A stretch of 64,000 nt of DNA from contig CM027385.1 of NCBI GenBank assembly GCA_015680905.1, forward strand, positions 24,496,501 through 24,560,500, read 5' to 3'. The position numbers and the translations under genes were made by a program. Under the pieces are notes generated by a model. That model saw only the letters and a program-made list of their open reading frames with translations. It was not told the origin of the DNA and searched no databases. Every line of letters starts with the position of its first letter. Position 1 is the stretch's first letter. This document shows, one piece after another, positions 19,401 through 64,000 of the stretch. The stretch comes from Coptis chinensis. Lineage: Eukaryota; Streptophyta; Magnoliopsida; Ranunculales; Ranunculaceae.

Positions 19401-21591
19401 GTTCAGACTGAAGTGCGACATTATGGTACTGCCACAATAACTTGTCATGCAGATTTAGAGCTGATAGTGCACGTCACTAAATGTGTATGCATTAGAAATT
19501 AATGACAATGAAAACTGTTTACTTACCCATGATCAAATGGGTGTGTGATCAGCAACATTACCACTGTCAAGAACAAGTTAAGGGGATGGTTGGCAACACC
19601 TTATTCCTTAGTAGAGATGGCTTCAAATGCTGGAGTACAGGATAATAGCTTTGGAACATTTCATGTCAAAAGTAGAGATAGTATAACCTAACAGCCACAA
19701 ATCAAGTGCATGTCTGTTACCCTATACAAATTCCAAAAAATATTCGAAACAATAAGTATGTTGAAGTTCCACATACTGTTAGACAGTGCAAAAAGAATAA
19801 TATCAGATTACCTAACATTCCACTCATCCAGTAGATAGACTAAATCTTGAAATTATGAGGAGCACTAGTTATAGCTTCGATTCCTTCATCAGATATACAT
19901 CACGAGCTCTTGATTTTCCTGAACTGAAATCCAGTTATGCATAATAGTGAAACCAAACCAATTGGTAATGAATAGTATGAGAATTATCTCACTAAGGCAT
20001 ATATATTAGCTTAAACTAGCTCACGTGATGTGTTATATTGACCCATGGATACTACATGCTCATACATGCTATTAGATGAGCAGCTCATTACCATCCACTA
20101 CACTCAGAAAATTAACATCTTGAAAGTGTCATTAATCACCAAGCTTGATGTAACAAACTCACCATTTAATTCATGTGTTCTAAAATCGGCATTCAATTGA
20201 CATAAGCAAGTCCTATATAACATTAACATCTTGAATTTCCCCACAATAAACTTTAATTAACTAAACTAAACAATGAAAACAAACCATGATGGAAACAATC
20301 GAATCCCGAATTCAATAAAATATCACTAACCCAATACTCGAAATTAATAATTTTAATAACCAAGCTCACAATGAGACTCCACTAGCAAAACCTACAACGT
20401 TGTATCCAAATTATCAAACTAAGCTTGGCTAAAAGCCTAAAAGTCAAGACATTACACCAGGCCACTATACAGGCAATCAACATGCCACTATAGGCCATTA
20501 TCGAGCTGTTGCATGCCATCACCAAGAGACAGGGATGAGTACAGACCTTGGGGAGTTATGGATTCGTTTTTCAGCATGAACTAAGGTAAGTTAAAACTAT
20601 CTAGCAACAACAAAATGGAAGGGATGGAAGTAGCTAGGAGATTATGCATCCTGATTCTTGATACTTTCAGATTCGATTTCGAAAGCTACCTTACTAAAGT
20701 CTAAACAGATGAAGAACACTTCAAAATACCCCAAATTAATTTTATCGCAATGTTGTTTGCTTTGTACTGATTAATATTTTTTCTACTGTATTATCTTCTG
20801 CCTCGTGATTTTTCTCACGTTATTTTCACTTAAGCGTAACCCCTGCCTACAGTAGGAGCTCCAATGTTTGCTTCCTTAATTACTCCACTCAATTTTAGCT
20901 CTCCAATGTTTACTTGTAACCACCCTAATTTCGGATATTTTTACAACAAAATACCCCAAATGTCTTCAAATTTTGCAGAGAAAAATTACAAACAAAAAAA
21001 TGTCTTCAAGTTCAATAACAATAACCTAATTACAAAAAAAAGGCGATCTTATATTTATTTAGTCAAGTTTAAGAAATTAAATTAACCAAAACATCATCTT
21101 ACTTTCGTGAAAAGACCAACCTTGCATCTGTATCTAGAGAGAGATAGACTAACCTTGTCCGAAATGAAGAACAGGACTTGGAGAAATCTGAGAGAGAGAT
21201 AGAGCAGAAACCCTTTTGACAATTGAAAAGATGGAGTTTCATCGCAATGTTTTTTGCCCTGTTTTCAGTTTTACTTGTTTGTTTTTTCTAGCCAGTGGTT
21301 TTGGAAACCCCTTTATCCACGGTAGGTTTGATTTTTCGAAAAATATAAACCACCTTTTTCCGAGAAACAGTGGGGTATATGAATTCCCAAAAACAAATTA
21401 TCCATATTTGGTGGTACCGTGGTATATGGCATAATAAATACCACTGTATACTACAAACAGTGGTATTTGCTTGCACCTAAATTGGGAATGCAAATTGTAC
21501 CGTGGTAAATGACTATTAGCCACTGCTATTGGAAAAATAGTGGTATATATCATTTGACCAACCGTGGTTAATGACCCTTTCTGTAGTAGTG
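16435..21591 (+). mobile_element. CACTA-1, non-autonomous CACTA (En/Spm-like) transposon
   Basis: The left terminus CACTACTACAGAAAAGCTCG and the right terminus ending CTTTCTGTAGTAGTG form terminal inverted repeats. GCC is duplicated on both sides (16432-16434 and 21592-21594), matching the 3-bp duplication of this superfamily. Both ends carry dense subterminal repeats of the ACCGTGGT/ACCACGGT type (roughly 16450-16720 and 21290-21580), which in En/Spm bind the element's own protein. No transposase-sized ORF exists in the 5157 bp, so it would depend on a helper. Its two ends match those of CACTA-2 in reverse order. A short decayed coding tail near 17081-17210 (minus strand) is shared with CACTA-2. 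Confidence 0.92.
18880..19040. repeat. Internal CACTA-like subterminal repeat cluster
   Basis: Degenerate GTGGTATA and TATACCAC words cluster in the middle of CACTA-1 and end in gtatctgtaatattatgtg. This resembles a diverged right end of the same family. It may mark the end of an older nested or fused element. Confidence 0.4.
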
Positions 21592-23349: not shown

Positions 23350-23613
23350 TGGACTCAGACAAGAGTGCGTGCGTGCGGGAAGTTTGGCTTGTCTAAAACC
23401 TAGAAAAACAGCCTCTCCTCAAAACCAAAAGAGCAAACCAAAAACCCCAATCCCACATTTCCAACATTAAAAAAAATTCCAACATAGAAGTCTCTAGAAA
23501 CATCCACTACACAACACTTTCTAGTCTAGGGTTGTATTTTATTATCCAATCCCCGTCCTTAAAACACTATTCCGTCACACACCAATAAAAAAAGAGCACG
23601 TACGTTCCCTCCG

Positions 23614-25965
23614 ATGGGAAAATCAGGAGGTAAGAAAAAGAAGACTAGTGCTGGAGCAGCGAATCCAAACCCATCATCATCATCATCAGGTAACACCTCA
23701 AAATCTGTTATTATACAGAACGGAGTTAATGTTGAAACAACGGACGTAATAATGAAAAGAGCTCATGAATTGAAAGAAGAAGGAAACAAGCGTTTCCAAT
23801 CCAAAGACTATTCAACAGCACTACAACATTACGAAAATGCCCTTCGTTTAACACCCAAAACCCACCCAGACCGCGCCGTCTTTCATAGTAACCGTGCTGC
23901 TTGTTTAATGCAAATGAAGCCTGTTGATTATGAAACTGTTGTTTCTGAATGCACTTTTGCTTTACAAGTTCAGCCACTTTTTTCGCGGGCTTTAGTCCGT
24001 CGTGCTAGAGCTTATGAGGGTTTGGGTAAACTTGATATGGCAATGCATGATGTTTTGGCGGTCTTGGGGTTTGAACCGAATAATAGGGACGCGTTGGAGA
24101 TTGTTGCTAGGTTGAGGGGGACCACGAGGAATGAGCAGGATCTTCAGAGTCGTCCTTCTCCAGCTGCACTTGGTGCTTCCGCGGTTAGAGGTGCACCTAT
24201 TGCTGGACTTGGTCCTGTTTTGCCTGCTAGGCCAGTGGCCAAGAAGGCGGTTTTGAATGTAGGAGGGAATGTGACTTCACCTAGTAATAAGGTGGCTGAG
24301 AAGAATCCACAACTTCGTGGTAGTTTTGAAGATGGGTCTGAGGTGAAGTCGCAGCAGCAGGCGACGAAAACAGCTTTGAAGCTTTCAAAGGATTCTTCTA
24401 CGGCAACTCCTGTAACTACTACATTGAATAAGAATAACCTCAAGGACGAGTTTTCTTCTGTATTGAAGAAGATTAATGTGCAGGCTTCAAACCCTATGGT
24501 TACTCAATGGAGGCCATTAAAGCTTGTTTATGATCATGACATTAGGCTTGCTCAGATGCCTGTGAATTGTAGTTTTAGAGTATTGAGGGAGACGGTGAGT
24601 ACTCGTTTCCCGTCTTCGAAATCAGTTTTGGTTAAGTATAAGGACAATGATGGTGATCTGGTCACCATAACTTCAACTGGGGAGCTTAGATTGGCAGAAT
24701 TATGTGTGGACAGTTTGATATCAAAGGAGCAGGGTAAGGAGAAAAATGAGACGTTTGGTATGTTGAGATTGCATATTGTTGAGGTGAGTCCTGACCAAGA
24801 GCCACCGTTGATAGAAGAAGAGGAGGAGAGGCCAGTGGAGGACGAGGGTGTGAAAACTGATGAGAGTGGGTCTCGTTCTTCTCCTAAGAGTTCTATATCA
24901 GAAACTATGGATACAGAGATTCATAAAGCAGAGGAAGAAGCTCCCAAGGAAAAGGCTGGAGATGATAATGAAAGCAAGGAAGTGGAGATGGATGACTGGT
25001 TGTTTGAATTTGCTCAGCTGTTCCGGACCCACGTAGGGATTGATCCTGATGCTCATATTGATCTGCATGAGCTTGGGATGGAGCTCTGTTCTGAGGCTCT
25101 TGAAGAGACAGTCACGAGTGAAGAGGCTCAAAGCCTATTCGACATGGCTGCTTCAAAGTTCCAGGAGGTTGCTGCCTTGGCTTTTTTTAACTGGGGAAAT
25201 GTTCACATGTGTGCGGCTAGGAAGCGTATCCCATTAGATGACAACGCGTCAAAGGAGGTGATGACCGCGCAGCTTCAGCTGGCTTATGATTGGGTTAAGG
25301 AGAAGTATGCCCTTGCGGGGGAGAAGTATGAGGAAGCACTCAAAATCAAGCCAGATTTTTATGAAGGGTTGCTTGCATTGGGGCAGCAGCATTTTGAGAC
25401 CGCAAAGCTACAATGGTCATTTACTTTGGCAAATAAGGTTGATCTGGAAACTTGGGATCCGACAGAAACCATTAAGCTATTTAATGATGCTGAAGAAAAG
25501 ATGAAGGCCGCTACTGCAATGTGGGAGAAACTGGAGGAACAGAGAATTAATGAACTCAAAGACCCAAGTTCCAGCAAGAAGGATGACTTGTTAAAACGAA
25601 GAAAGAAGCAGGGAACAGATGCAGATGGTGGTCTGTCTGGAGGTGGTCAGGCCACTGTTTCCCCTGATGAAGCGGCAGAGCAAGCAGCTGTCATGAGATC
25701 TCAGATACATCTCTTTTGGGGTAATATGCTCTTTGAAAGGTCCCAAGTTGAATTCAAACTTGGTTTAGATGGTTGGAAGAAGAATCTGGATGCTGCTGTG
25801 GAAAGGTTTAAACTTGCTGGAGCTTCTGAAGCAGACATTTCTGTTGTTCTGAAGAATCATTCTTCCAATGCGGAAGGACTGGTGGGTGAAGATAAGGTTA
25901 TAAACACTGATGTTCCAGCAGAAGCAAATGGAAAGGATGAAGGTAGTCATGCTTTGGAGACGTGA
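23614..25965 (+). CDS. CLMP1: CLMP1/PHOX-type TPR and PB1 domain protein
   Basis: A single uninterrupted exon encodes 783 residues. The N-terminus MGKSGGKKKK precedes a TPR block at about 49-168 (HELKEEGNKRFQSKDYSTAL, then FHSNRAACLMQMKP). LQSRPSPAALGAS follows at about 175. A PB1 domain spans about 300-385, with RPLKLVYDHDIRLAQMPVNC and the acidic KYKDNDGDL. A conserved C-terminal half begins at about 458 (EMDDWLFEFAQLFRTHVGID) and contains more TPR-like helices. Length and order match Arabidopsis CLMP1 (about 750 residues), which is needed for chloroplast separation and positioning; related PHOX proteins bind chaperones or myosin. An in-frame TAA at 23560 with no later ATG supports this start. 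No defect is visible, so the gene is probably functional. It could be another PHOX paralogue, but the N-terminus favours CLMP1. Confidence 0.95.
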   Translation: MGKSGGKKKKTSAGAANPNPSSSSSGNTSKSVIIQNGVNVETTDVIMKRAHELKEEGNKRFQSKDYSTALQHYENALRLTPKTHPDRAVFHSNRAACLMQMKPVDYETVVSECTFALQVQPLFSRALVRRARAYEGLGKLDMAMHDVLAVLGFEPNNRDALEIVARLRGTTRNEQDLQSRPSPAALGASAVRGAPIAGLGPVLPARPVAKKAVLNVGGNVTSPSNKVAEKNPQLRGSFEDGSEVKSQQQATKTALKLSKDSSTATPVTTTLNKNNLKDEFSSVLKKINVQASNPMVTQWRPLKLVYDHDIRLAQMPVNCSFRVLRETVSTRFPSSKSVLVKYKDNDGDLVTITSTGELRLAELCVDSLISKEQGKEKNETFGMLRLHIVEVSPDQEPPLIEEEEERPVEDEGVKTDESGSRSSPKSSISETMDTEIHKAEEEAPKEKAGDDNESKEVEMDDWLFEFAQLFRTHVGIDPDAHIDLHELGMELCSEALEETVTSEEAQSLFDMAASKFQEVAALAFFNWGNVHMCAARKRIPLDDNASKEVMTAQLQLAYDWVKEKYALAGEKYEEALKIKPDFYEGLLALGQQHFETAKLQWSFTLANKVDLETWDPTETIKLFNDAEEKMKAATAMWEKLEEQRINELKDPSSSKKDDLLKRRKKQGTDADGGLSGGGQATVSPDEAAEQAAVMRSQIHLFWGNMLFERSQVEFKLGLDGWKKNLDAAVERFKLAGASEADISVVLKNHSSNAEGLVGEDKVINTDVPAEANGKDEGSHALET

Positions 25966-35860: not shown

Positions 35861-37392
<1,532 letters not shown>

Positions 37393-38726: not shown

Positions 38727-39605
38727 TAAGGCCGAGTCTAATGGTTTGGTGTGTCAAAACACCAAATCAAAATAGTATAGTGTATAGAGTTAGCGGATTA
38801 GCCGTTTGCAAAAGCAATGGTTTTTCTCACAGCCGTAAGTACCTATTGTGTACAGGAAATTTTTATTTTGACCCTCCAACCTGCCATTGTCAAATACGTG
38901 TGGGAAAAAAAAAAAAAAAAAAAAAAAAATCTAGCTGCCACACAGTGTGGCGTGTAACTTAGCGATTTCTTCTACCCACCACTTATATTGGCGTGTAGAC
39001 TTGACCCTATTTTGTTAAAACTGGCACTATAGATAGGTAAACTTATATCGATAGTGTTGGCGGGTTAGCGTTTTGACGCACCATTAGATTAGAATTTCCA
39101 TAATATTTGGTGTTTTGCCGTACCATTAGACTTAGCTTAAGTCCAATGGTGGTGCGCCATCGCACCAAACCATAATAGTATATTGTATAGAGTTAGTGGG
39201 TTAGCGTTTGCAAAGGCAATGGTTTTTCTCACAGCCGCCATTGTAAAAGGCACATGGGAAAAATAAATAAATAAATAAATTCTAGCCACCACACAGTGTG
39301 GCATTTAGCCTATATTTCTTCTACCCGCCACTCATACTGGCGTGTAGACATGATGCTATCTCGTTAAAACTAGCGTTATAGATAGGTAAACTTATACCGA
39401 TAGCGTTGGTGGGTTAGCGTTTTGATGTACTATTGAATCAGAATTTCTGTGATATTTGGTGTTTTACCGCACCATTGGCCGGACTTAGCCTAAGTCCAAT
39501 AGTGGTGCGCCATCGCACTAAACCACAATAGTATAGTGTATAGATTTAGTGGGTTAGCGTTTGCAAAGGCAATGGTTTTTCTCACAGCCGCCATTGTCAA
39601 AGGTA
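38727..39605. repeat. Tandem MITE array, units A, B and left part of C
   Basis: Head-to-tail units begin with taagtccaatggtggtgcgc (or diverged) and end with gcaccattggacttagc, so each unit carries its own terminal inverted repeats. Unit A is about 38727-39137, unit B 39138-39490, and unit C starts at 39491 and is cut at 39605 by CACTA-2. Shared internal phrases include ggttagcgtttgcaaaggca, tttttctcacagccg and cgttaaaactagcgttatag. Unit length is about 350 bp (A is longer, with an A-run at 38907-38929). No coding capacity is seen. Confidence 0.85.
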
Positions 39606-40984
39606 CACCACTACAGAAATGCACATTACGGTAGGTCAAATGGTATATACCACTGTTTTCCCAATAACGGTGGCTAATAGTCAATTCCCACGGTAAAGAT
39701 GGCTTTTCTAATTTCGGTACAAGCAAATACCACTAGTCTCGTAAAATAGTGGCATATAATATGCCATATACCACGGTACAACATAAAATTCCTAATTTGT
39801 TTTCTCACATTCATTTACCCCACCGTTTTTACAGAAAAAGTGGCTAATGTTTTGCCAAAAAATAAACCTACCGTGGGTAAAACAATCTAAAAAGAAAATA
39901 AAAAACCATAAAAAAGAAAAAATGGGAAAAACTGTCTAGCGCTAAAACTTCTATCGACACCCTCTTTTCAACTAGCTAGGGTTTCAAGTAGAGTTTTGTT
40001 TCATCTCTCCCCAATTTCGGTTATCGATCAGGTATTTGTTTTTTTCTCTATCTCTCACCCCAATTTCTAAAAGTTTGATTTTCTTCTCCAATTCAAATAA
40101 AGCCCAAAATTGTAGTGATTTCCATTGGTGAGAATTTTGATAAAAAAATTGTTTCTTGTTTTGCCGCAAGGAAGGGTTAAGCCCACTTTTACCGTCAGTT
40201 CGTTACACAAAGACTATTTGTTGGCAATTGCTACTAAAGGTAATCCAATTTTGTCATACGCTTAACAGCCAATTTTGTTTATGTTAAGCATTAGTTGTTT
40301 TAGTAATAGGTCATAAACCTTGGAAAGTTCAGTATGAAAGCTACTGGATGTAGGCTGTATTTCTGTTAGTTTTGATTAGTTTGTACTAGAGATAAACTAT
40401 TGTGATCTCTAATATTCCTTGGTGGAAACCTTAGAGAGTATTTGATAATATTCCAACTGTTTGTAGTATTTCACCATTTCTGTGAAAGGTATTAAGGGTC
40501 GTCTTAATCGATTACCATCAGCTTGTTTTGGTGATGTGGTTATGCCTACTGTTAAGAAAGGGAAACCTGATTTGAGAAAGGAAACCTTGGCGCCGAAAGA
40601 ATTAACCTGTTGAGTAGTAGTTTTGGATTGGATGCTCAGTGCTACAGAATATATAGTGGTATCTAGTCAACAATTATATCCCATGTCTTCGTTAGGCTAT
40701 CATTTTTAGATAGTGTGATTTTTTTTTGGTAAAAGTTCGAGAGTTTAACTGTAGAAACCCCTTTACAAAACTTCACACCTATTCACACCACCCAAGAAAG
40801 TTGTATATTCTTGTTTCTCAAGTACTTTTATTACTTGTTTATCTAATCACTTGTGCATTGTGTTAAAGCAGTTCAAGACTAGTGTGTTTAGTTTTGTTGG
40901 TTAACTTTTCTAGTACTTGAAAGAAATGAGCTAAGTACTAGAAAAGTTTTAGAATTTACTGTTGAAGAAGAAAGTTTAAACTTA

Positions 40985-43900
40985 CTTGGGGTGTTTTGTT
41001 TCATGAAAAGAAATGAGGGGCATGCAGTTTATATAGTTACTTTGAAACAAGCTCCTGAAGTTCATTATATTGGTGATGACTTGAAATTGGAGAGTGATGA
41101 TGGTATTAGACATGGAGGAGGAGCTTATGGAACACTTAATAAGTTTAATAAACCAAGGTACTTCTGAATTTTACCACATTCTTGTTTCTTAAGTGTTTTG
41201 ATTAGTACTAAAATCTATTTTGATCATGTTTTTATGTTTTTTTTTCTCAATTATGTGGGAGTATAGTATGTTTCTCAATGTGTTTAATGTCACTCCCCAC
41301 ATACACACACACACTAACATCTAGTGCCCTTAATGCGTATGAAAAAGCAAAAATAAGATAAATTACAAATTTATATGTGGGGATAAATGTACTCATTCAT
41401 GATGTGTGTAAGTGTGAGAATTTGACTTACATACTTTTTGTTTTCAAATAGACATTCAGGCATTGGTTTTAATTCGTTTACGTATTCTGAGGTTTCTAAG
41501 TTTGTAGAATTAGTTAATTTTAGTTTTCTAGTGGCAGTTTTAATGTGTTAGAAATATATGAATCTTAGGTCATAGCACCCCCCCCAATAAATCATACAAA
41601 CTTGTAGGTGTAGCATGGTTCTAGTGGTATTGTCATCGAGTACAGCTTGCACTTGAGATCACTGTGGATTATGCCTAAACTTTTTTTTATCCATTTATTG
41701 AACTCATCAATACTCAATTTCCAAGACTTTGTGGAGTTTGGATTGTTTTATGAGACACACTTAATTTGCATTTTCTTAAGAAACAGGAACATTTCCAGAT
41801 TAGGTCAGGGATCTTATCTGAATCGAGTTCATGATTTTCTGTTGAAGTGGGTTTTAAAGGGGGGAAATTATCTGAAGCTGTATAGCTATCATTACTTAAT
41901 CAATGGCTTTGTTGTACTTGTAACCACTCAGCAGGTTTGTCATACATATATCTTCGGTTTATTGTATTTTGACTCATTTTCCATGTGTAAGGTCGAACTA
42001 TTTCAGTGATATTAGGACTGGAAACTTCTATTCATGTCTAGCATTAGATTAATAAGCATTCGCAGTTTAGAAACTATTGGTTGGTTAGCTTCTAAGATCA
42101 ACTTCAGTAGCAGCTTGATCCTCGGGAAAGTGTTTGTTGTGTAGCGTCACTAGAACCATGAATTGATGCCGACTTGAAAATCTCCAGCTTCAGAAAGTAA
42201 AACCGGTTGGTGTCAATCCACCCTTCTACTAAGAGGAATTAAAAAAATTGGTCATGACACTGTTATCTAATGTAAACCAATCTGGTCGATCTGTAGGCAG
42301 GAGGTTTTCCAATATAATCCACTTTCACTTTCGTGGCCTCCACCGATTGAATAAGTGTGTATCTTGTCTGCATATATAGATGGAAGATTTTATCTTGATG
42401 CCATAGCATTTATTATTAATGTTAAATAAACTATTTATACATCTTATAATGTCATGACTTTAATGATTTTCAAAGGCAGAGAAGCTTTCTAGGAGACAAG
42501 AAGTGGCCAACGTGGTTTTATATTTTTCAGTCCGAACTGCAACTACCCATACTCCAAAGTTCTTGGGTCTTCCTCTAGGGGCATGGGTTGAGGAAGGTGG
42601 ACCTGAATTAGTTGGAGAAGGAATTGTTATTGGTTTTGTTGACACTGGAATTGATCCAACACACCCCAGCTTCTCCGATGACATTTTTGAGCATGTTTTC
42701 CCGGTTCTTGAACACTTTTCTGGTATCTGTGAAGTCACGAGTGATTTTCCATCTGGTTCTTGTAATAGAAAACTGATTGGTGCTTGTCATTTTGCTGCAT
42801 CCGCTATAACAAGAGGAATATTCAATGCCAGTCAAGACTATGCTTCACCATTTGACGGTGATGGTCATGGATCGTAAGTTTTTCTAACCACTATATCATA
42901 AATGTGTGCAAAACTACATAAAGATAGTACCAGTGATAGTAAATTGCAGCACTTTTCATTGCCTTGTATAGAGTTTTAGCCGATGCTTAATATGATGATG
43001 GATTGTCAATTTCCATTAATTAGGCGTGTTTGTTTTTGTTAAAGGTCATCGCGAAAGTTATAATCCCGAAATGCGGGCATACGGCTTCCATTCTTGGCGG
43101 GAACCATGGGATTCCCTGTCATCGTTCTTTGGGCATCCCTTTGGCAAAGCAAGTGGCATGGCTCCTCGCTCACGATGAATTCATTTTTTTCTCACAGTAA
43201 TTAATTTGGATATATACAATTGCCTATGGACTGTGATTTTTTTCTTTCTGAACACTACAATACAAGTATATATGTCATTAGAAAACCTGATAACTGTACC
43301 AGATCTGTATAGGGTAAACTCTTATGCTGAGAAAACCACTGTACTCTTTCTCAAATGAAAAACTATTTGTCTAGGTTCTTGTTTAAGGCGTATTTCTTGT
43401 TACTATTAGATTACATTTTTACATGTACTCTTTTGGTGCAATCAATTTTTTTTTCTACCTGAGATTTTCTTTTGCTAATTTGCCTCTTTGAACGAATCAT
43501 GTAGTAGAATACATCTTATTGAACTATATTATATGTCTTTTCAAGATCTATAAAGATGGAAAATATAAATTTAGTAATGTGCCTATAAAAGTTAATTTAT
43601 ATGGTATGTATAGTTATTAGGTGTGTAGGTTGTGCACGAGCTGGTGGCTGGTGCGGTGATTGATTGGATACATTTAATTGCACGCCATCCACTGCTATCT
43701 AACAGCAAAAACACAAAATTTTATGACCATATCAGCTGCCCTACTTTGTAATTTGGAAAGCTTCTCATCTTCATTGTACAGTAAATAAATAGTGAAGTAT
43801 TATTTCCATGTCAAAGTTTGATGTAAGTAGACATTTTTGATGGTCTGAAAATCTGTTTCAGCATTTCGGTCTACAAGGCATTGTACAAGAGTTTTGGAGG

Positions 43901-44905
43901 CTTCGCTGCAGATGTTGTTGCTGCCATTGACCAGGTACACATGTTGATTAATTCGTTATCTATGAAATCCATGAATATCTAGTGTTGGTTGCAACTTGCA
44001 AATACAAACTTCTTTACATAATTTCTTTTTGCAACACTCATTGTAGTTTAGATTTATATTATTTATATATATAAATGTTGATATAACATCTAATTATTAT
44101 TTCTAGTTATCAACATGAAGTTATCTCGCTCCTTATCAACAAGAGAAACATAAAGACAACTTAGTTACCCGCTAGTAGTTTGCTTATCCTATTTAGATAT
44201 TAATTGTTTATAGCTGTTCGAAAGCGTTCAAATTTCAATAACATATTGATGCTTCTATTTGTGTATGAGTTGTACATTCACCAAAGACTATTGAGTGAGT
44301 ACTATCGGTCAGCTATAATCACTAGGTGCAGCTTCTCTGCAAGTGCATTTGATGCATTTCCTTTTTTTTTCCCAAGTACAGATAATAAATCACTTTTAAC
44401 ATCAATGCACCTCATTAACGTTTTGGGTGAAGTCTTCATGTTGGACACCTCATATTGGTGTCCAACACGCTGTATGTAGCTCTGTCATTACTTGGGATAA
44501 ACTCACGTTTCTAACGATGATCCGCAACATTCCAAGATGCAAATGATTACTTGTCATCCAAATTTTTTTAACTTTATCTACAGATAACTATGGAGACCCA
44601 CCTTTTACGATAAAAAAAAAAATGGATAAATAAATAAATATGGAGACTCATCTAATGGTAGCATCTCTCTACGATGCAAATTAATCCTTGTACTCCACGC
44701 CCACGGACACACATGCATGCACAACTATATATTATAAATATGCATTTTGTAAGATCTTATATTTTTCTTCATTGCCATTATTATATCCCCAGGCTGCCCA
44801 AGACGGGGTAGACATAGTAAGCTTGTCAATTACTCCTAATAGATGCCCTCCTGGTCTTGCGACATTTTTCAATCCCATTGATATGGCCTTACTCTCGTTG
44901 TAAAG
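40985..44905 (+). pseudogene. Captured SBT2-type subtilase gene fragment inside CACTA-2
   Basis: Six exon-like blocks with intron gaps are visible: about 40985-41157 (AVYIVTLKQAPEVHY), 41787-41934 (NYLKLYSYHYLINGF), 42476-42872 (TTHTPKFLGLPLGAW; IVIGFVDTGIDPTHPSF), 43077-43173, 43862-43934 (ISVYKALYKSFGGFAADVV) and 44793-44900 (AAQDGVDIVSLSITPNRCPP). The blocks cover the inhibitor I9 prodomain and the start of the peptidase S8 domain, including the catalytic Asp in VDTGID. They match plant SBT2 subtilases as I recall them. Several GT/AG borders survive. The fourth block, which should hold the catalytic His, is frameshifted and lacks an AG acceptor. The copy stops before the catalytic Ser. It cannot encode a protease. 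Confidence 0.9.
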
Positions 44906-45156
44906 TAGAAGTAGTCATACATTAACATTCTCTGTTTTGTGTTACTCTTCATTAATTATTTAGTTATTATATTACCTTTTGATCTTTGATCGTGTATATG
45001 ACAAATCTAAGCCTCAAAGATACATACACACAAGAGGAACTTGATGTTGTTCAACTTGAAATTCTTAGATTCATTCAGCATAATGGAGCGTTCGAGCCAA
45101 GCATTGTGTCTTAGCTAGGTTTTGACCCTTTCCAGTTAAGATTCGGTACTTGGTTG

Positions 45157-45253
45157 ATGTTTTAGATGGAACAAGTTGGTCATTATTATTTTGATGTTTT
45201 AGATGGAACAAGTTGGTCATTATTATTTTGATGTTTTGGCCGGATGGAACAAG
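45157..45253. repeat. Short tandem repeat near the right end of CACTA-2
   Basis: A ~40-bp unit (gatgttttagatggaacaag, then ttggtcattattatttt) occurs twice in tandem with a third partial copy. The related word cttgttccatctaaaacatc occurs in CACTA-1 near 16943, so it is part of the family's common end sequence. Confidence 0.7.
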
Positions 45254-45702
45254 TTCAAACTTCTTTTTAGCAATTCAATGTCTAAATTTATTTATTTTGT
45301 TTGTTGCATTATGAATTGTTTATTTGAACAATGTGTTTTTAAATCCAATGTGGATATGGTGAAAATGGACAGGTTGCAGGTTCTAAGGTTGAATATGATG
45401 AAAATTGAATAATTAGGGGTTTTATTTTTTTATTTTTTTTAAATGTCTATAAACCACGGTTTTTATCCAACCGTCGTATATATCATCACTATTTCCCATG
45501 GTTCACCGCGGATAGGGAAAATTGTAAAGACTATTAACCACGGTTCGGAAATCCTAATGCCACTGTTTTAGCTAAAACCGTGGTATATAATATGTACTTT
45601 TTACCACGGTTTTGTTAGAAGTATTTGTCACGGTGGTTGTTACCACGGTTTGAAAACAGTGGCTAAAAGCTTTTTACCTATATGAGCTTTTCTGTAGTAG
45701 TG

Positions 45703-45938
45703 GCATGTGGGAAAAAAAATAAAAAAAAATCTAGTCGCCGCAGAGTGTGGCGTGTAGCTTAGATTTCTGCTACCCGCTACTCATACTGGCGTGTAGACTT
45801 GATGATATCTCGTTAAAACTAGCGTTATAGATAGGTAAAGTTATATCGATAGCGTTGGTGGGTTAGCGTTTTGACGCACCATTAGATCAGAATTTCCGTG
45901 ATATTTGGTGTTTTGCCACACCATTGGACTTCGCCTAA
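45703..45938. repeat. Tandem MITE array, right part of unit C
   Basis: The array sequence resumes after CACTA-2 (gcatgtgggaaaa, then tctagtcgccgcagagtgtgg) and ends at gccacaccattggacttcgc. Joining 39491-39605 with this part gives about 350 bp, equal to unit B, which confirms that CACTA-2 inserted within unit C. Confidence 0.85.
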
Positions 45939-46184
45939 GAGGTGCATGGTTCGGGTGTTAGTGTCTTACTCATGCCTCTAGTATATATATATCCATTGAA
46001 AAATGCTAGAACTATATGGTGACGAAATTGTGTGAATGAAAAAAAAAAATGGGAAAATATACTATTTCATTCTATATACAATTTGAGAAAATCAGGCTTC
46101 CAAATTACCTTCTATTTTTTAAAAATAATATACAACTTGGTCACATCACCTAAATCTGTGGATAAACTAGAGGTCAATTTCTTA

Positions 46185-46924
46185 GGGCATCCTCCTATTG
46201 GGGTGCAAAATTACACCTCCACATATAGGCTCCATGTAAAGGTGGAATTTGAGCTGAGCGGTTCTGGCTCGGTTAGAGCTCGCTCGTTTAACGATATGGG
46301 CCGAACTCGAGCTGAAATTAAAGCTTGTATAACAAATGAGCTTGATGAAGCTCGACTCGTTTAGCTCAAATAATATCTTTGTAGTGTAAAATAACCAAGC
46401 TACTCGAGCTCGCTCGTTGCTCAATTTAAGACTCGTGTAATAAACGAGCCAAGTTTGAACATAATAAAGTTCGGCTCGTTTAGCTCGAATTCCACCCTTA
46501 TCTCTACGTATAGTAGGTGCCATTAGGATTTTACAACTCCAATTATATACTATTGTATAGCCTATAAATATCTACATTTTTTTTATGGTGAAAAAAATGA
46601 AATAATATCCACACTTTATAGTCCCCAATAGAAAAGTGTAAAAAAAAAATTGGATTTTAAACTCAGACATCAGTGTCTGAGTTAAAAAATTTACAAATTA
46701 TGACTTTAGAACTAGAAAGGGAGTGACTTAAATTGACATCCGAAATTTTTTTTGTTCGGATGTTGGTTAAAGTGTCGCCCGAGCTATTTATCAACTAATA
46801 GTGAGATGACTTTCAACTAATAGTCTATTACCTACGATATACTACTCCCATTGGAAATTATTTTTTGACATTTGGAGTGTAAACTTTACACTCTATATGA
46901 TTTACACCCCCATTGGAGATGCCT
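46185..46924. mobile_element. PIF/Harbinger-like MITE with a nested repeat
   Basis: The left end GGGCATCCTCCTATTGGGGT and the right end (complement AGGCATCTCCAATGGGGGTG) are inverted repeats flanked by TTA on both sides (46182-46184 and 46925-46927). At about 740 bp it is long for a MITE because a second inverted-repeat unit lies inside it (46241-46496). Confidence 0.7.
46241..46496. mobile_element. Nested inverted-repeat element with GGTGGAATT ends
   Basis: The left end GGTGGAATTTGAGCTgAGCGG is complementary to the right end ctcgtttagctcgaattccacc. The interior is rich in GCTCG/CGAGC words. No clear target duplication was found. It lies within the larger MITE and so inserted later. Confidence 0.55.
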
Positions 46925-50400: not shown

Positions 50401-51066
50401 TGTTGGAATCTTGAATGATATTGTGTCCTCATGGGTTTGAACCCATGACCTTATGTCTCTACTACTATCTAATGTGGGGGGCTTTAGTCCCACATTGGTT
50501 ACTAAACTTAAGTCTTTTAAGTTTATATTGTTTGTGTCCTTATGGAGGGATAGTGTAGAGAAATAGAAGGAGGTGCTCGCGCGCACACAAAGCCGCCTTG
50601 GTTTGGGGGCTCTCGGGAGGTGGGAGCTCCAGAAAACCTTAGTGGACGTCGCGCGCAGGGGGGGATGTGCAAATCCACCCAATTGGGCTTCGAGTACTGG
50701 GCTTTTTTTTGCGGAAATTCTTTTGGTCTTCTTTCCAAAAACTGTTGTTACATTATCTTTCCTTTTCGAGTCCCTTGAGTTGCGAGTATCAGATCTATAA
50801 AACACAGCTCTCTCTTGTTTATAAAAGGGGAGAAAAAACATTATTTTTCATCTTACAAAAAACCATGTCTGGTGTACACTGAGAGTTTCTGCAGAGCAGG
50901 TCATTGGCTGCTGCCTCGCTCTTCCGCTGTTGTATCCTGGGAGACGTACGCTTGAGGCCGGCAGCAACCATACCGGCGGCGTTTTTCATCTTAAGGCCGA
51001 GCACAATCCTCAGTGATAAGTTTTATTTGCATTCTTATTACTGTTTTCGATACTATTTGAATAACA
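50401..51066 (+). repeat. 5' LTR of Copia-2
   Basis: This LTR is 666 bp and begins TGTTGGAATC. It lacks three short segments that are present in the 3' LTR (around positions 50646, 50690 and 50770 here). Outside these gaps the two LTRs differ at only scattered positions, indicating a fairly recent insertion. Confidence 0.93.
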
Positions 51067-51136
51067 ATCTTAAGATGAAAAAACGTTTTATTATCTAGTA
51101 TTGTATTTGTGCTCGTTTGTTTTTTATACTACTGAA

Positions 51137-52068
51137 ATGGAAAAACCTAGTGGTAAGTCTGTCAAACCTGAGATTTTTGATGGTAGAAATTTCAAGCACT
51201 GGCAGATGAAAATGCGGTTTTATCTGACTACTCTAAAACTGGTTGAATGGATTTCGATTGAGAAACCCATTTCAAATGACGATGAAGAAGAACCTGGTCG
51301 TTCTGGTGGTGTGGACAGATGGGAAAAGAAGGATTATTTGTGTCGGAATTATATACTTGATTGTCTTTCTCTTGATTTGTATGATGTTTATGCTGTGTGT
51401 ACGACTGCTACAGAGTTGTGGAATTTACTTGATAAGAAGTATGCTACTGAAGATGCAGGTTCGAAAAAGTTTCTTGTAGGAAAGTTTCTGGAATTCAAGA
51501 TGGAAGATGGAAATTTGTTGTTTCTCAAGTGGAGGAGCTGCAAATAATTATTCATGAGATTTTGCAGGAAGGTTATAAAATCTGCAAAGGTTTCTAGGTT
51601 GCTTCCATCATTGAGAAACTCCCTTCTTTGTGGAAGGAGTACAAAAACAGTCTCAAACATAAGAAGAAAGAGATGACCCTAGAAGATCTGATCGTCAACC
51701 TTCGGATCGAGGAGGACAACAGGAAGGCTGAAATCAATGTGGAGACTACAGAAATGAAGGCTAAGGCTAACCTGGTTGAAGGTAACGCTGCTAGTTCTTC
51801 TAAGTCTAAATCATCTAAATTCCAAGCCAAAAAGAAACCATATGTGAACAAGAATAAACATTCCCAACCTCACTTTAAAAAGAAACCTTACAATCCTGAA
51901 ATTCATTGCTATGTGTGCGGATCACGAGGTCATATAGCCCCGGACTGTAAATTCAAAAAAGGTCCGAATGATGGGAAGAAAGATAAGGCACAAGCAAATG
52001 TAGTTCAGGATGGTAACTTTTTTGCTGTGATTATTGAGGTTAACTTGGTGAGTAACATGACTGATTGA
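51137..52068 (+). pseudogene. Copia-2 gag
   Basis: From ATG 51137 the capsid region reads MEKPSGKSVKPEIFDGRNFK, a typical copia gag start (UBN2 type), with the conserved W of the LTTLKLVEW block. A frameshift near 51530 and a stop near 51595 break it. The reading resumes in another frame at 51604 and keeps a full zinc knuckle, CYVCGSRGHIAPDC (51907-51948, C-x2-C-x4-H-x4-C). The frame then ends at TGA 52066, just before the protease. Gag would have packaged element RNA. Confidence 0.88.
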
Positions 52069-52748
52069 TGGGTAGACACTGGGGCTACCAAACACATCTG
52101 TGGCACCAAAAGTGCATTTGCGTTCTTCACTCCTCTGAGAGAAGGAGAAAGTCTGTTCATGGGTAACTCATCTTCTTCTAGAGTTGAAGGAAAAGGGACT
52201 GTTAATTTGAAGTTCACTTCTGGAAATGTTCTTAATTTGAAAGATGTTCTTTATGTTCCTGATATTAGGAAAAATCTGGTTTCTGGTTCCCTTTTAAGTA
52301 AGAAGGGGTTCAAACTTGTCTTTGAGTCAGACAAATTTGTTCTGACTAAGGGGGGAACCTTTGTGGGTAAAGGTTATTTAGATGAAGGCTTATTTAAGCT
52401 CAATGTAACTGATTTTGAATTTAATAAAGCATCTACTTCTTCTTATATGGTTTAGTCATTTGATCTGTGGCAGAGAGGAAAAATAGGACTCTCAAAGATA
52501 TGATCAATAGTTCTGGGGCTTCTATGAACCTATGGGGGGAGGCTTTGCTAATGGCCTGTTATATTCTGAATAAGATACCTTTTAAAGACACAGATAAAAC
52601 TCCATATGAGATGTGGAAAAATAGGACACCGTCTTATAAATTCTTTAAAGTGTGGGGGTGTTTGGCTAAGGTGTCTATACCAACACCCAAGAGGACTAAA
52701 CTTGGCCCTAAAACTGTAGATTGTGTCTTTATTGGGTATGCAATGTAA
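52069..52748 (+). pseudogene. Copia-2 protease and remnant integrase (core deleted)
   Basis: [11 protein letters not shown] (52069 onward) is the aspartic protease active site. [20 protein letters not shown] marks its C-terminal part. At about 52467 the sequence jumps from the end of that region to AERKNRTLKDMI, deep in the integrase. The zinc-binding module and two of the catalytic acidic residues are therefore absent. The later blocks YILNKIPFKDTDKTPYEMW and PSYKFFKVWGC confirm the integrase C-terminal region. The join lacks the ~130 codons expected in this family. Confidence 0.85.
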
Positions 52749-54500
52749 TAGCAAATACTGAGGTTTTAGTTTTCAAATATAAAAATAAATTTGTTGATGA
52801 TAATACCATTATTGAGTCTAGGGATCTTTGTCTTTTTGAGGATAAATTCCCATTCATTGAGAGATCCGGAGGGACTTGAAGTTCTTCTAGACTTGCTCCT
52901 AGAGTTCGAGAAGATTCTTCTCAAAAGATGAAATTGAACTCGGGAGAGAGCAAGAGACCTAGGATTAACACCTCTTTTGGACCTGATTTCCTTACTTTCT
53001 TGGTAGAGGATGATCCTCGGACCTATTCGTGAGGCCATGTCATCTTCCTCGATGCCATTTTTTGGAGGGAGGCCATTCTAAGTGAATATGAGTCCATTAT
53101 AACCAATAACACTTGGGAGCTGGTTGAGTTGCCCCCTGGTTGTAAAACTATTGGGAATAAATGGTTATTTAGAAATAAACTTAAGGCAGATGGATCCATT
53201 GATAAATATAAAGCGAGATTAGTAGCAAAAGGCTATAAACAGAGAAAAGGGTTTGATTTCTTTGATACTTACTCTCCTGTGACAAGGATTACATCTATTA
53301 GAATGTTAATAGCTTTTGATTCTACTCATAATCTCGTAATTCACCAAATGGATGTCAAAACGGCATTTCTATATGGGGAATTACAAGAGGAGATATATAT
53401 GGATCAGCCAGAAAGTTTTGTTTTAGAAGGCCTTGAGAGAAAAGTTTGTAGACTAAAGAAATCTCTTTACGGTCTCAAACAAGCTCCTAAACAGTGGCAT
53501 GAGAAATTTGACAATGTGTTAATCTCTAATGGGTTTAATATAAATGAGGCAGATAAATGCATTTATTGTAAATTTGAGGAACAATCTAGTGTAATTATCT
53601 GTTTATATGTGGATGACATGTTGATCATTGGAACCAGTTTAGAAACCGTCAATAAGACTAAATCTTTTTTGAGTAAGCATTTTGACATGAAAGATTTGGG
53701 TATTGCTGATGTCATTCTTGGCATTAAGATTGTGTATAATTCTGATGGAATTAATTTGACTCAATCTCATTATGTAGAGAAAATGCTTAAAAGATTTAAT
53801 CAATTTGACTATGTACCTGCCAGAACACCATATGATCCTAGTATACATTTGACAAAAAATATTGGATCAGGTGTATCTCCTTTAGAGTTTCTAGGGTTAT
53901 AGGCAGTCTCATGTATCTCATGAACTGCACTAGACCAAACATAGCTTACGCCGTAAGCAAACTCAGTAGATACACTATAAATCCCAGCAATGAGCATTGG
54001 GATGCTCTTATCAGAGTATTGAGATATTTGAAATATACTTCAAATTATGGTGTTCATTATGGCGGATATCCAAATTGCGGCTTGAGGGGTACAGTGATGC
54101 CAATTGGATTGCCGATTCTCGAAATCTAAATCCACCGATGGCTATGTGTTCACTATGGCGGGGTGCGGTCTTGGAAAATCATCTAAGCAAACTTGCATTG
54201 CCCGTTCCACTATGGATTCTCGAGTTTATAGCTTTAGACAAAGCTAGTGAGGAAGCAGAGGGATCGGGAATTTTTGATGGATATCCCGCTTTGGCCTAAA
54301 CTTGTTCCACCTGTCTCTATTCACTGTGATAGCCAAGCTGCTATCTTGAGGGCAAAAAATACTTCCTATAATGGGAAATCTCGACATATTAAATTGAAGA
54401 CATAACATCTTGTCGCGACAGTTGTTAAGAGATGGGATCATAGCTATTGACTTTGTGAGGTCAAAAGAAAATTTAGGCGATCCTTTAACTAAAAGCGCCC
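52749..54500 (+). pseudogene. Copia-2 reverse transcriptase and RNase H
   Basis: A 257-codon open frame (53129-53902) holds most of the reverse transcriptase: NKWLFRNKLKADGSIDKYKA, QMDVKTAFLYGELQEEIYM, YGLKQAP and the catalytic LYVDD (YVDD at 53606-53617). RNase H follows in pieces: MNCTRPNIAYAVSKLSRY (53914 onward), SDANWIADS (about 54095) and SRHIKLK (about 54380). Frames shift near 53900 and 54090, with stops near 54400. The enzyme would have copied element RNA into DNA. It is not intact here. Confidence 0.9.
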
Positions 54501-55148
54501 GCTAGAGAGGTTTTTAGTACATCGAGGGGGATGGGGCTAAAGTCTATTAAAGACTAAGCCTGTTTATTTAAATCACCGATAACTGACACCCAACCTTTGT
54601 GAATGGAGATCCCAGGATCAAGGTTCAATGGGGAAACGAGTTATCTGCGTGATTTGTGGGGGTACTACACCTAGAGTGAAAACTCTGTACCCATCCCTAT
54701 GATGTAGTAGTACCTTCTGTATCTTTTAAAAGATGAGTGAATACTCTTAATGCTTTCTATAGCTAGTTTTTCCAGTGGGGTGTAATGATACAGTACACTC
54801 CTGATAGAGGCACCTATATGAGTGAGGAAGTAAAGCCGCTTCTTATGAGAACTTATAGGCTTGTTCTCTAGAGCACTCATGAAACCTGGGAAGCTCATGG
54901 CTATATGACCACAACTGAGGGAACTCTATGATGATTTTTGAAGTTATGTGTGTTACCTGTTGACTTGGATTACATATATGTTGAACAATTCAAGACTAAG
55001 GTCACTGGTCAATTAGTAATCCCGACAGACAAACACCAAGCGAAGGTTCAAGTCGTATGACACCTTCAGCCCATTCATAACTTTTTCATACTCCAGACAT
55101 TCTTCTTTTTTTCTTCTGTTTCTTTATAACTTCATTCATGTGGGGGAT
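54501..55148. other. Copia-2 3' untranslated region and polypurine tract
   Basis: Noncoding DNA ending in catgtgggggat (55137-55148) immediately before the 3' LTR. This G-rich purine run is the polypurine tract. Confidence 0.75.
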
Positions 55149-55917
55149 TGTTGGAATCTTGAATGATATTGTGTCCTCATGGGTTTGAACCCATGACCTT
55201 ATGTCTCTACTACTCTCTAATGTGGGGGGCTTTAGTCCCACATTGGTTACTAAACTTAAGTCTTTTAAGTTTATATTGTTTGTGTCCTTATGGAGGGATA
55301 GTGTAGAGAGATACAAGGAGGTGCTCTCACGCACACAAGGCCGCCTTGGTTTGGGGGCTCTCGGGAGGTGGGAGCTCCAGAAAACCTTAGTGCGCGTGTA
55401 CCCACACACGTCGCGCGCAGGGGGGGGGGGGCAAATCCACCCAATTGGGCTTCGCGTGGGTGCGAGTACTGGGCTTATTTTTGCGGAAATTCTTTTGGTC
55501 TTCTTTCCAAAAACTATTGTTACATTATCTTTCCTTTTCTGATCGAGTCAAAACATTTTACTCGCATTTTCTCTCGCTCATTAAAAACTTGCCAGTAGAG
55601 GAGTCGTGACTCTCGCCTTGAGTTGCGAGTATCAGATCTATAAAACATAGCTCTCTCTTGTTTATAAAAGGGGGGAAAAAGCATTATTTTTCATCTTACA
55701 AAAAACCATGTCTGGAGTACACTTAGAGTTTCTGCAGAGCAGGTCATTGGCTGGTGCCTCGCTCTTCCGCTGTTGTATCCTGGGAGACGTACGCTTGAGG
55801 CCGGCAGCAACCATACCGGCGGTGTTTTTTGTCTTAAGGAAATTGTGCCGAGCACAATCCTCAGTGATAAGTTTTATTTGCATTCTTATTACTGTTTTCG
55901 ATACTATTTGAATAACA
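55149..55917 (+). repeat. 3' LTR of Copia-2
   Basis: This LTR is 769 bp and matches 50401-51066 over its length apart from the extra segments missing in the 5' copy. It ends ATTTGAATAACA. A G-run (55422-55432) lies inside. It is followed by GACTA, the right target duplication. Confidence 0.93.
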
Positions 55918-59583: not shown

Positions 59584-60845
59584 TGATAGGGTTATATACT
59601 AAAAGCATTACTTTTGTATTAACTCTAATTCTTTATATTTTGAATGAGAATCATATAGGCAAATGTTATGCATATTATATATGTTATTAGTTATATGCAT
59701 GTGTCTAATACTTTATGTTGTAGATGATATGGTGTGAACACAATGTAAGATCATATCATCGCATACCTTATAAAGTATAAGTAATCGTTCACAACCTATA
59801 TGGATTTGGACAAACCATTAGTATGGTTGTAGTATAATCTGGTATTAGTCTATCTTGACTATAGGATTACACTAGTACATTTTGTGTGTATTGAACAGGA
59901 CTAAGTGAGGTTGTTTCTCCTTATACTGACTATATAAGAGAACAAACGCCTCTATTATTATAAATGCTTGTCTTCCCAATCCGGATATAATAATGGGCAC
60001 TTACATACATTGTACATTGCTTTAAATCATCAATGAGTGAGATTCATTGGTGGATCAACAAACTCGATGGATTAGGTAATGACATTGTATGTAAAGTGTG
60101 CTGTTGATTATAGAAGGAATCTGTGTCCCACAAGAAGTCGGGTTGATGATGTCCCCTTGAGGAGCTCAAAAAGGTTGTCATGTAAACCCTGTAGGTGGAT
60201 TTATTCCGACATGACAATGAGGTTGAGTGGTACTACTCAAGGACATAAGAAGTTGATTAATGTAGTTGTCAGTAACTTGACTTAATCAACGGACATTCGA
60301 TATCTTAAACATGGGGAGATCAACAAGCATATAATATGGAGCCCATAAACGCTGACACGTAATTTGGGATTAGGGCGGTAGTGCAACAATGGCCTTTAGT
60401 GGAATAAGCCATTTGTTGATGGACTTGGGCCGTGTGTTTTGGGCGAACATGGGAAGCCTAAGCCTGTCAGAAGGCCCAACCCTAATTTCTCCTCATGGTC
60501 CCTGTTGTATAAATTGAATACTCTCTCTCTAGCCGAAATTCACTATTCATCTGAACAGAAAAAAAGGCAAGGAAAGATAGATCCAAAATTGGATCTAGCT
60601 TTGTGAGAAAGGAGGGGATTGGTAGATTGTTGTCCACACAACGTCAAATCTATTCTAAAGGAATACAATAGAAGATCAAGGGGTTGATTGTTGATTCGGA
60701 TTCATAAAGCTTGGATTCTCAGAGTTATCAAACCGGATCTAAAAGGTATGTTCTTTATCACAAATCGTGGACACCCATTGATTCCGCTGTGCGTGGTGTT
60801 CGCGGTTTGTAGAAATATTTGATTATGATAATAATGGTTCCTACA
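59584..60845 (+). mobile_element. Solo LTR S1 (copia-like), inserted in the gag-like gene
   Basis: The 1262-bp unit starts TGATAGGGTTATATAC and ends GGTTCCTACA. It is flanked by a perfect 5-bp duplication, AGTGG (59579-59583 and 60846-60850). No internal retroelement coding sequence is present, so it is a solo LTR left by LTR-LTR recombination. Its partner S2 lies at 61609-62872. A TATA-like tataaattg is near 60507. A 68-codon ORF at 60079-60285 is also found in S2. Confidence 0.93.
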
Positions 60846-61608: not shown

Positions 61609-62872
61609 TAATAGGGTTATATACTAAAAGCATTACTTTTGTATTAACTCTAATTCTTTATATTTTGAATGAGAATCATATAGGCAAATGTTATGCATAT
61701 TATATATGTTATTAGTTATATGCATGTGTCTAATACTTTATGTTGTAGATGATATGGTGTGAATACACAGAAGATCATATCATCAGTACCTTATAAAGTA
61801 TAAGTAATCGTCCACAACCTAGATGGATTTGGACAAACCATTGGTACGGTTGTAGTATAATCTGATATTAGTCTATCTTGACTATAGGATTACACTAGTA
61901 CACTTTGTGTGTATTGAACATGACCAAATAAGGTTGTTTCTCCTTATACTGACTATATAAGAGAACAAACGCCTCTGTTATTATGGATGCTTGTCTTCCT
62001 AATCCGGATATAATAACAGGCACTTACATGCATTGTACATTGCTTTAAATCATCAATGAGTGAGATTCATTTATGAATCAACAAACTCGATGGATTGGGT
62101 AATGACATTGTATGTAAGGTGTACTGTTGATTATAGAAGGAATCTGTGTCCCGCAAGAAGTCGGGTTGATGATGTCCCCTTGAGGAGCTCAAAAAGATTG
62201 TCATGTAAACCATGCAGGTGGATTTATTCCGACATGAGAATGAGGTTGAGTGGTACTACTCAAGGACATAAGAAATTGATTAATGTAGTTGTCAGTAACT
62301 TAACTTAATCAACGGACATTCGATATCTTAAACACGGGGAGATCAACGAGCATATAATATGGAGCCCATAAACGCTGACACGAAATTTAGGATTAGGGTG
62401 GTAGTGCAACAATGTCCTTTAGTGGAATAAGCCATTTGTTGACGGACTTGGGCCGTGTGTTCTGGGCGAACATGGAAAGGCCAAGCCCGTTAGGAGGCCC
62501 AACCCTAATTTCTCCTCATGAACCCTGTTGTAGCCTATAAATAGAATACTTTCTCTTTGGCCGAAATTCACTATTCATCTGAACAGAAAAAGAGGCAAGG
62601 AAAGTTAGATCCAAAATTGGATCTAGCTTTGTGAGAAAGAAGGGGATTGGTAGATCGTTGTCCACACAACGACCAATCTATTCTAAAGGAATACAAAAGA
62701 AGATCAAGGGGTTGATTGTTGATTCGGATTCATAAAGCTTGGATTCTCAGAGTTATCTAGACCGATTCTCAAAGGTATGTTTTCCAATCACAAATCGTGG
62801 ACACCCATTAATTCCGCTGCGCTTGGTGTTCGCGGTTTGTAGAAATAGTCATTCTGAATAACGGTTCCTATA
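61609..62872 (+). mobile_element. Solo LTR S2, inserted in the Gypsy-2 LTR
   Basis: The 1264-bp unit is closely similar to S1 from end to end and is flanked by a perfect 5-bp duplication, GGATC (61604-61608 and 62873-62877). Both termini are altered relative to S1: TAATAGGG instead of TGATAGGG, and CCTATA instead of CCTACA. A TATA-like ctataaataga lies near 62535. No internal coding region remains. Confidence 0.92.
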
Positions 62873-63295: not shown

Positions 63296-64000
63296 CACTA
63301 CTACATAAAATGTCATATACCACTGTTTTTTACAGTGGTAAAAAGGCTTTTACTACTGTTTCTAAACCGTGGTATCAGCTGGGGTGGTAAATATTTCTAG
63401 AAAAACCGTGGTATAAACTTCTACTTATTAACCACGATTTAGTCTAGAACCGTGGTAATAAGGTTTTCAAAACCGTGGTATATGACCATTACGAAGTTCT
63501 GATATTATGAGAAACCGTGGTATAAAGTCACCATATTAGCCACGGTTTTTCCAGAATAGTGGTATATTCACCATATTTGAAAAAAATACCCTGATTATTT
63601 AAATATTTCAATCACATAATAACTTTAGAAAATAATTATGCGTATCACATTCCACTTCATCACAAATTTAAAACACCATGATCCACCACATAACTAATTT
63701 TAAAACACCCAAAAATAATTCATTCCCAATCGAAAATTCATATTCTAATTAATACTAATATAATATAAAGAACCTCCAAACCTACTCACTCTATCTTGTT
63801 CTGTATTCCAAATTGTATTGCAATGGAAGAATAACAAAAGAAAAAAAAAATGTAAATCTATATAACTTCACCAAGAACATTCTCTTATATGTTGGCATTC
63901 TTGTCTCAAGAGCATTCAGCCAAGACCAAGCAATGTTAATTTGATCACCCTATAAAAGAAATAGTTGTGATTAGAAAATAAAAAAGGTATAAGTAAAACA
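63296..64000 (+). mobile_element. CACTA-3, left end (runs off the window)
   Basis: The terminus CACTACTACATAAAATG is followed by the same ordered subterminal repeats as the left end of CACTA-1 (ttacagtggtaaaaaggctt; aaccgtggta). It is therefore the same family in the same orientation as CACTA-1. The preceding GTT (63293-63295) is the predicted target duplication. The right end and any gene content lie outside the window. Confidence 0.85.

Follow-up and report, generated by a model that had tools for sequence, protein, structure and literature searches.

A Pack-CACTA-type transposon in Coptis chinensis very probably built around an intron-bearing subtilase fragment and a second host-gene piece

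A 64,000-nucleotide stretch of Coptis chinensis DNA (assembly GCA_015680905.1, contig CM027385.1, positions 24,496,501–24,560,500 of the forward strand; hereafter the window, numbered from its first letter) contains a CACTA-type element of 6097 bp at 39606–45702 (+), delimited by its termini, by a second family member and by an empty site. The element is very probably a non-autonomous Pack-CACTA that moved by cut-and-paste into one copy of a tandem repeat, carrying pieces of at least two host genes, with the subtilase piece acquired as genomic DNA. The arrangement is that of a Pack-TYPE element, in which terminal inverted repeats and a target site duplication enclose host coding sequence in a non-autonomous unit.

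CACTA (En/Spm) superfamily members have terminal inverted repeats starting CACTA or CACTG, a 3-bp target site duplication and clustered subterminal repeats, and each of these features was found at 39606–45702. The ends read CAC(C/T)ACTACAGAAA. The right inverted repeat, CACTACTACAGAAA (45689–45702, −), came from a terminus scan; it and both ends of a relative at 16435–21591 start CACTACTACAG, and the left repeat, CACCACTACAGAAA (39606–39619, +), starts CACCA and differs from CACTACTACAGAAA by one mismatch. The copies of the target duplication are GTA (39603–39605) on the left and GCA (45703–45705) on the right. The target was a tandem repeat (38735–39605, with the other half of the hit copy at 45703–45939), whose unfilled copies act as paralogous empty sites. 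Joined after dropping one duplication copy, the flanks align to the neighbouring copy 39129–39420 ungapped at the join, the only gaps (1 and 3 nt) lying in an adjacent A-rich run. Another copy, more diverged (38850–38985), also aligns ungapped across the join, with gaps about 20 nt off and ACG at the site. Because the joined flanks align to unfilled copies, the whole 6097 bp is a single insertion; the closer copy has GCA at the target site, which makes GCA the most likely original duplication. A sequence-only reading of this stretch had proposed a CACTA element with exactly these borders and a near-perfect 3-bp duplication, and the borders, the relative's ends and the empty site agree with it.

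The relative (16435–21591, −) lies 18 kb away, has both ends exactly CACTACTACAGAAA, a perfect GCC/GCC duplication (+ strand) and a different interior. A third member is represented by its right end (63296–63480, −) and runs off the end of the window (64000). Comparison by blastn of the 39606–45702 element with the second gave 276 bp at 78% identity on the left and 788 bp (44915–45702) at 65% on the right, in consistent order and orientation. Local alignment extended these matches to a 451-bp left end (39606–40056, +) and an 802-bp right end (44901–45702, +, against 16435–17326, −); the interiors gave no blastn match at E 0.01. Motifs of the ACCACGGT/ACCGTGGT type (up to 1 mismatch) are concentrated at the ends of this family, with 37 of the 50 copies in the window lying within 300-bp stretches at the five ends that the three elements have there, where 1.2 would be expected if they were uniformly spread; the outer 300-bp stretches of the 39606–45702 element hold 4 and 7. 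Termini arising by chance were ruled out by the terminus scan and a block-shuffle control: terminus pairs (at most 1 mismatch, 0.5–20 kb apart) number 2 in the window and appear in 0/200 block-shuffled windows, a control that is partly circular in that the terminus sequence was derived from the same window.

The second element also contains an inner, shortened left-end-like stretch (approximately 19024–18897), aligning with scores of 27 and 24, where sets of 60 mononucleotide shuffles reached no more than 19 and 21, respectively. This is weak evidence, compatible with a fusion of two elements. For the cargo of this second element, a Pfam scan of 14 pieces, a fraction of its many short frames, yielded nothing above cutoff.

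The main cargo of the 39606–45702 element is a subtilase, differentiated into six exon blocks on the plus strand: the start of the I9 prodomain (block 1, 41003–41157), its continuation (block 2, 41787–41934), the prodomain end with VDTGID and GHGS (block 3, 42476–42873), a damaged block 4 (43077–43174), block 5 (43862–43934) and block 6 (44793–44897), which is cut off mid-exon. Translated in order, they give a plant-type subtilase sequence that starts in the prodomain, passes the Asp and His regions and ends at NPIDMALLS. We take VDTGID to be the catalytic Asp motif and GHGS the catalytic His motif. Five introns of 629, 541, 203, 687 and 858 nt separate the blocks, and canonical borders survive at 8/10 positions (GT at 4/5 donors, AG at 4/5 acceptors). 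The lost borders are the acceptor of intron 3, now GG at the edge of homology, and the donor of intron 4, now AT. A start of exon 4 at 43045 was dropped because it implies an insertion of 31 nt; a start at 43077 involves a single altered acceptor and keeps the reading SHTASILGGNHGIP. G+C content is 43% in the exons and 32% in the introns. Because the introns are retained, the subtilase copy was made from genomic DNA. Both the six blocks with surviving intron borders and the uptake as DNA, introns included, had been proposed from the letters alone, and both are borne out.

Matches to plant subtilases and an above-cutoff I9 domain identify the cargo as a plant subtilase (S8). A phmmer search of the PDB placed 7eox first (E 1.3e-34), followed by 3i6s (1.1e-27) and 3vta (3.5e-21), among nine distinct sequences with E no higher than 0.001, those below the top three being weaker and not plant-labelled; Inhibitor_I9 scores 40 bits in Pfam against a cutoff of 21.2. 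The resemblance to the SBT2 group is presumptive, the PDB matches carrying no SBT label. The multi-exon structure would speak against most SBT1 proteins, without singling out SBT2. PMC6713707 identifies 3i6s as tomato SlSBT3 and 3vta as melon cucumisin. For cotton, PMC10056545 gives an average exon number of 1 for SBT1 and 9 for SBT2–5, whereas PMC9875013 describes an SBT2 group with 1–2 exons; since these SBT2 exon counts disagree, SBT labels differ between papers.

The codons for Asp (VDTGID) and His (GHGS) are both intact, and damage begins just past the His codon. Exon 4 is 98 nt long (2 modulo 3) with two frameshifts, having lost the acceptor AG before it and the donor GT after it. No Ser region is present, the cargo having broken off mid-exon. 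The sequence-only reading was therefore right that the Asp region is kept and that the cargo ends before Ser, and wrong in placing a frameshift at the His block: the shifts lie downstream, in exon 4. On the right, exon 6 breaks off at 44897 and the part alignable to the second element begins at 44901, which locates the capture junction to about 4 bp; it may perhaps reach 44906 if degenerate codons continue. Exons running past 39606 or 45702, which that reading had named as grounds for abandoning it, were not seen: with cargo peptides as tblastn queries against the whole window, strong subtilase matches fell only inside the element (best elsewhere E 0.15).

Upstream of the subtilase, at 40470–40602 (+), lies a fragment of the cytosolic ribosomal protein uL14 (RPL23), with residues 38–77 at 40470–40589 and then a possible continuation. 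The best PDB match, among 63 distinct sequences at E≤1, is 9h3g (uL14x/z/y chain, E 4e-17). A plant uL14 sequence used as query in a search of the window gave 33/40 identical residues (E 2.6e-17). In another frame, 40567–40602 encodes ERKPWRRKN, resembling downstream uL14 RKPWRRKD (E 0.67 alone), which is only suggestive of a uL14 continuation after a small internal deletion. With both uL14 and subtilase fragments, the element is chimeric, drawing on two host genes or more. The earlier proposal of a gene captured by the element thus stands, and its assumption of one gene only does not, the uL14 fragment having been overlooked.

Several points weigh against this assignment. The two copies of the target duplication differ (GTA/GCA), and one mismatch is present in the left end. 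At their ends the two elements are only 65–78% alike, so neither is a recent copy of the other. No transposase domain was found in 16 pieces of the element scanned against Pfam, many shorter frames being unscanned, nor in 14 scanned pieces of the second element, with the third outside the scan. Separate subtilase pieces score 17.6 and 15.1 for Peptidase_S8, below the curated cutoff of 21.8, and the uL14 fragment likewise falls short in Pfam (15.5, cutoff 23.6). Finally, copying from host gene to element, rather than the reverse, is the presumed direction.

Alternatively, instead of uptake through transposition of adjacent CACTA elements, an element already in place might have acquired the host sequence afterwards, whether as filler DNA during break repair or as part of another mobile element such as a Helitron. 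The presence of two unrelated gene fragments points to two or more events, and 40057–40469 and 40603–41002 have no identified origin, both of which would suit such an entry. We nevertheless consider it unlikely: both recognized pieces of cargo share one orientation, exon 6 passes into transposon sequence almost without interval at the right junction, and a terminus scan inside the element found no inner end, except one 2-mismatch match (41836–41849) within subtilase exon 2. Real exons, introns and splice borders could also be those of a resident subtilase gene decaying between unrelated CACTA-like ends, which is very improbable given that the joined flanks rebuild an unbroken tandem-repeat copy, that the two ends correspond, with order and orientation preserved, to those of a second complete element, and that the subtilase breaks off mid-exon at the start of transposon sequence. 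For insertion of a retrocopy of subtilase mRNA into the element no supporting evidence emerged, and it has practically no likelihood, given five stretches of 203–858 nt between the coding blocks and canonical intron borders at 8/10 positions.

A different question is whether the captured subtilase functions as a gene, or whether it silences its parent by way of small RNAs, the latter a suggestion of the sequence-only reading. Spliced together, exons 1–3 are open over 234 codons, which speaks in favour. Against it, the catalytic Ser region is missing, two frameshifts and two lost splice borders interrupt the copy, and 39000–46500 shows no strong hairpin from which small RNAs could arise, since the longest ungapped inverted repeat found there has arms of 46 nt at 74%. 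We regard either function as improbable.

The Pack-CACTA assignment suggests an outline of how the element arose. Its longest reading frame, counted from stop to stop, does not exceed 136 aa, and the scanned pieces hold no transposase domain, so the element would need transposase from elsewhere, and a transposase acting in trans presumably moved it. Capture may have taken place, probably over two or more steps, when adjacent elements with internal deletions fused; this is the model of the Pack-CACTA literature, in which, as set out in PMC8903248 and PMC13317346, tandem neighbouring insertions lose their inner ends and then move as one. The element would now be mostly a decaying pseudogene passenger.

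Transcripts from the left end may be spliced onto cargo exons, yielding chimeric transcripts. A possible splice donor of a noncoding first exon (CAG/GT) was chosen by eye at 40031–40033 (+). Its conservation between the two elements was considered and is not used as evidence, the relative's AAG/GT lying 7–10 alignment columns away. With intron 3 kept (acceptor changed), the reading of such a transcript would end directly after GHGS (TCG TAA). No signal peptide was recognized in the captured sequence. It is conceivable, at very long odds, that spliced exons 1–3, with their I9 prodomain, could yield a free inhibitor holding back the parental protease; if true, a transposon would have turned a protease gene into a transposon-borne inhibitor prodomain. 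Near the right end, a motif hinted at the remains of a ULP1-like transposon protein, which is not claimed: it had no Pfam or PDB match, and over 25 codons compared between the two elements, 16 are identical, 2 differ synonymously and 7 nonsynonymously, with 3, 5 and 5 substitutions at the three codon positions, a distribution that does not show coding constraint.

Elsewhere in the window, a Copia-type retrotransposon occupies 50401–55917, with frames for gag, a zinc knuckle and RVT_2, and is flanked by direct repeats (50401–51066 and 55149–55917) of 91–94% identity. A 1.26-kb direct repeat (59586–60843 and 61611–62870, 93% identity) possibly represents long terminal repeats or a recent duplication. 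An open frame of 800 aa that combines TPR repeats with a PB1 domain (23563–25965, +) is apparently a resident gene, and pieces of a 2-oxoglutarate Fe(II) oxygenase (Pfam 2OG-FeII_Oxy) lie in two frames at 35861–36628 (−).

Literature text searches returned no paper by title on CACTA capture of subtilisin, nothing related for CACTA-captured gene fragments with introns and a ribosomal protein, no match for subtilase peptide strings, and no transposon paper by title for the terminus string. The value of the element lies in insertion borders resolved to the base, a cargo junction within a few bases and two recognizable source genes, with a relative of different interior in the same 64 kb. It should be useful for studying how CACTA elements take up DNA and changes no accepted view. 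Pack-MULEs are likewise non-autonomous and carry captured gene fragments; they belong to another superfamily, with Mutator-type ends and longer duplications.

Pack-MULEs are named in PMC8903248, which describes Pack-CACTA elements with multi-locus cargo in Arabidopsis and maize. Like the Coptis element, these have CACTA-like ends, target duplications and host coding DNA; they lack a transposase, as do the scanned pieces of the Coptis element, with maize cargo often drawn from more than one locus, as here (PMC8903248). The end sequence here is CACTACTACAGAAA, compared with CACTACAA used for Arabidopsis Pack-CACTA in the same source; the Pack-CACTA work of Catoni 2019 is cited in PMC8903248 and PMC13317346. 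The soybean CACTA element Tgm-Express1 (PMC1947982; Zabala and Vodkin 2007) contains five host gene fragments including introns. At 5.7 kb it is nearly equal in size to the Coptis element and similarly joins pieces of several host genes unrelated to one another, keeping their exons and introns. Its five genes are other ones (including CDC2, malate dehydrogenase and cysteine synthase), and it sits in F3H intron 2, where chimeric transcripts started at the host gene's promoter have been shown, whereas the present case is one of sequence only. Intron-bearing, multi-gene captures by CACTA elements are already known, and the Coptis element is a further and well-bounded example.

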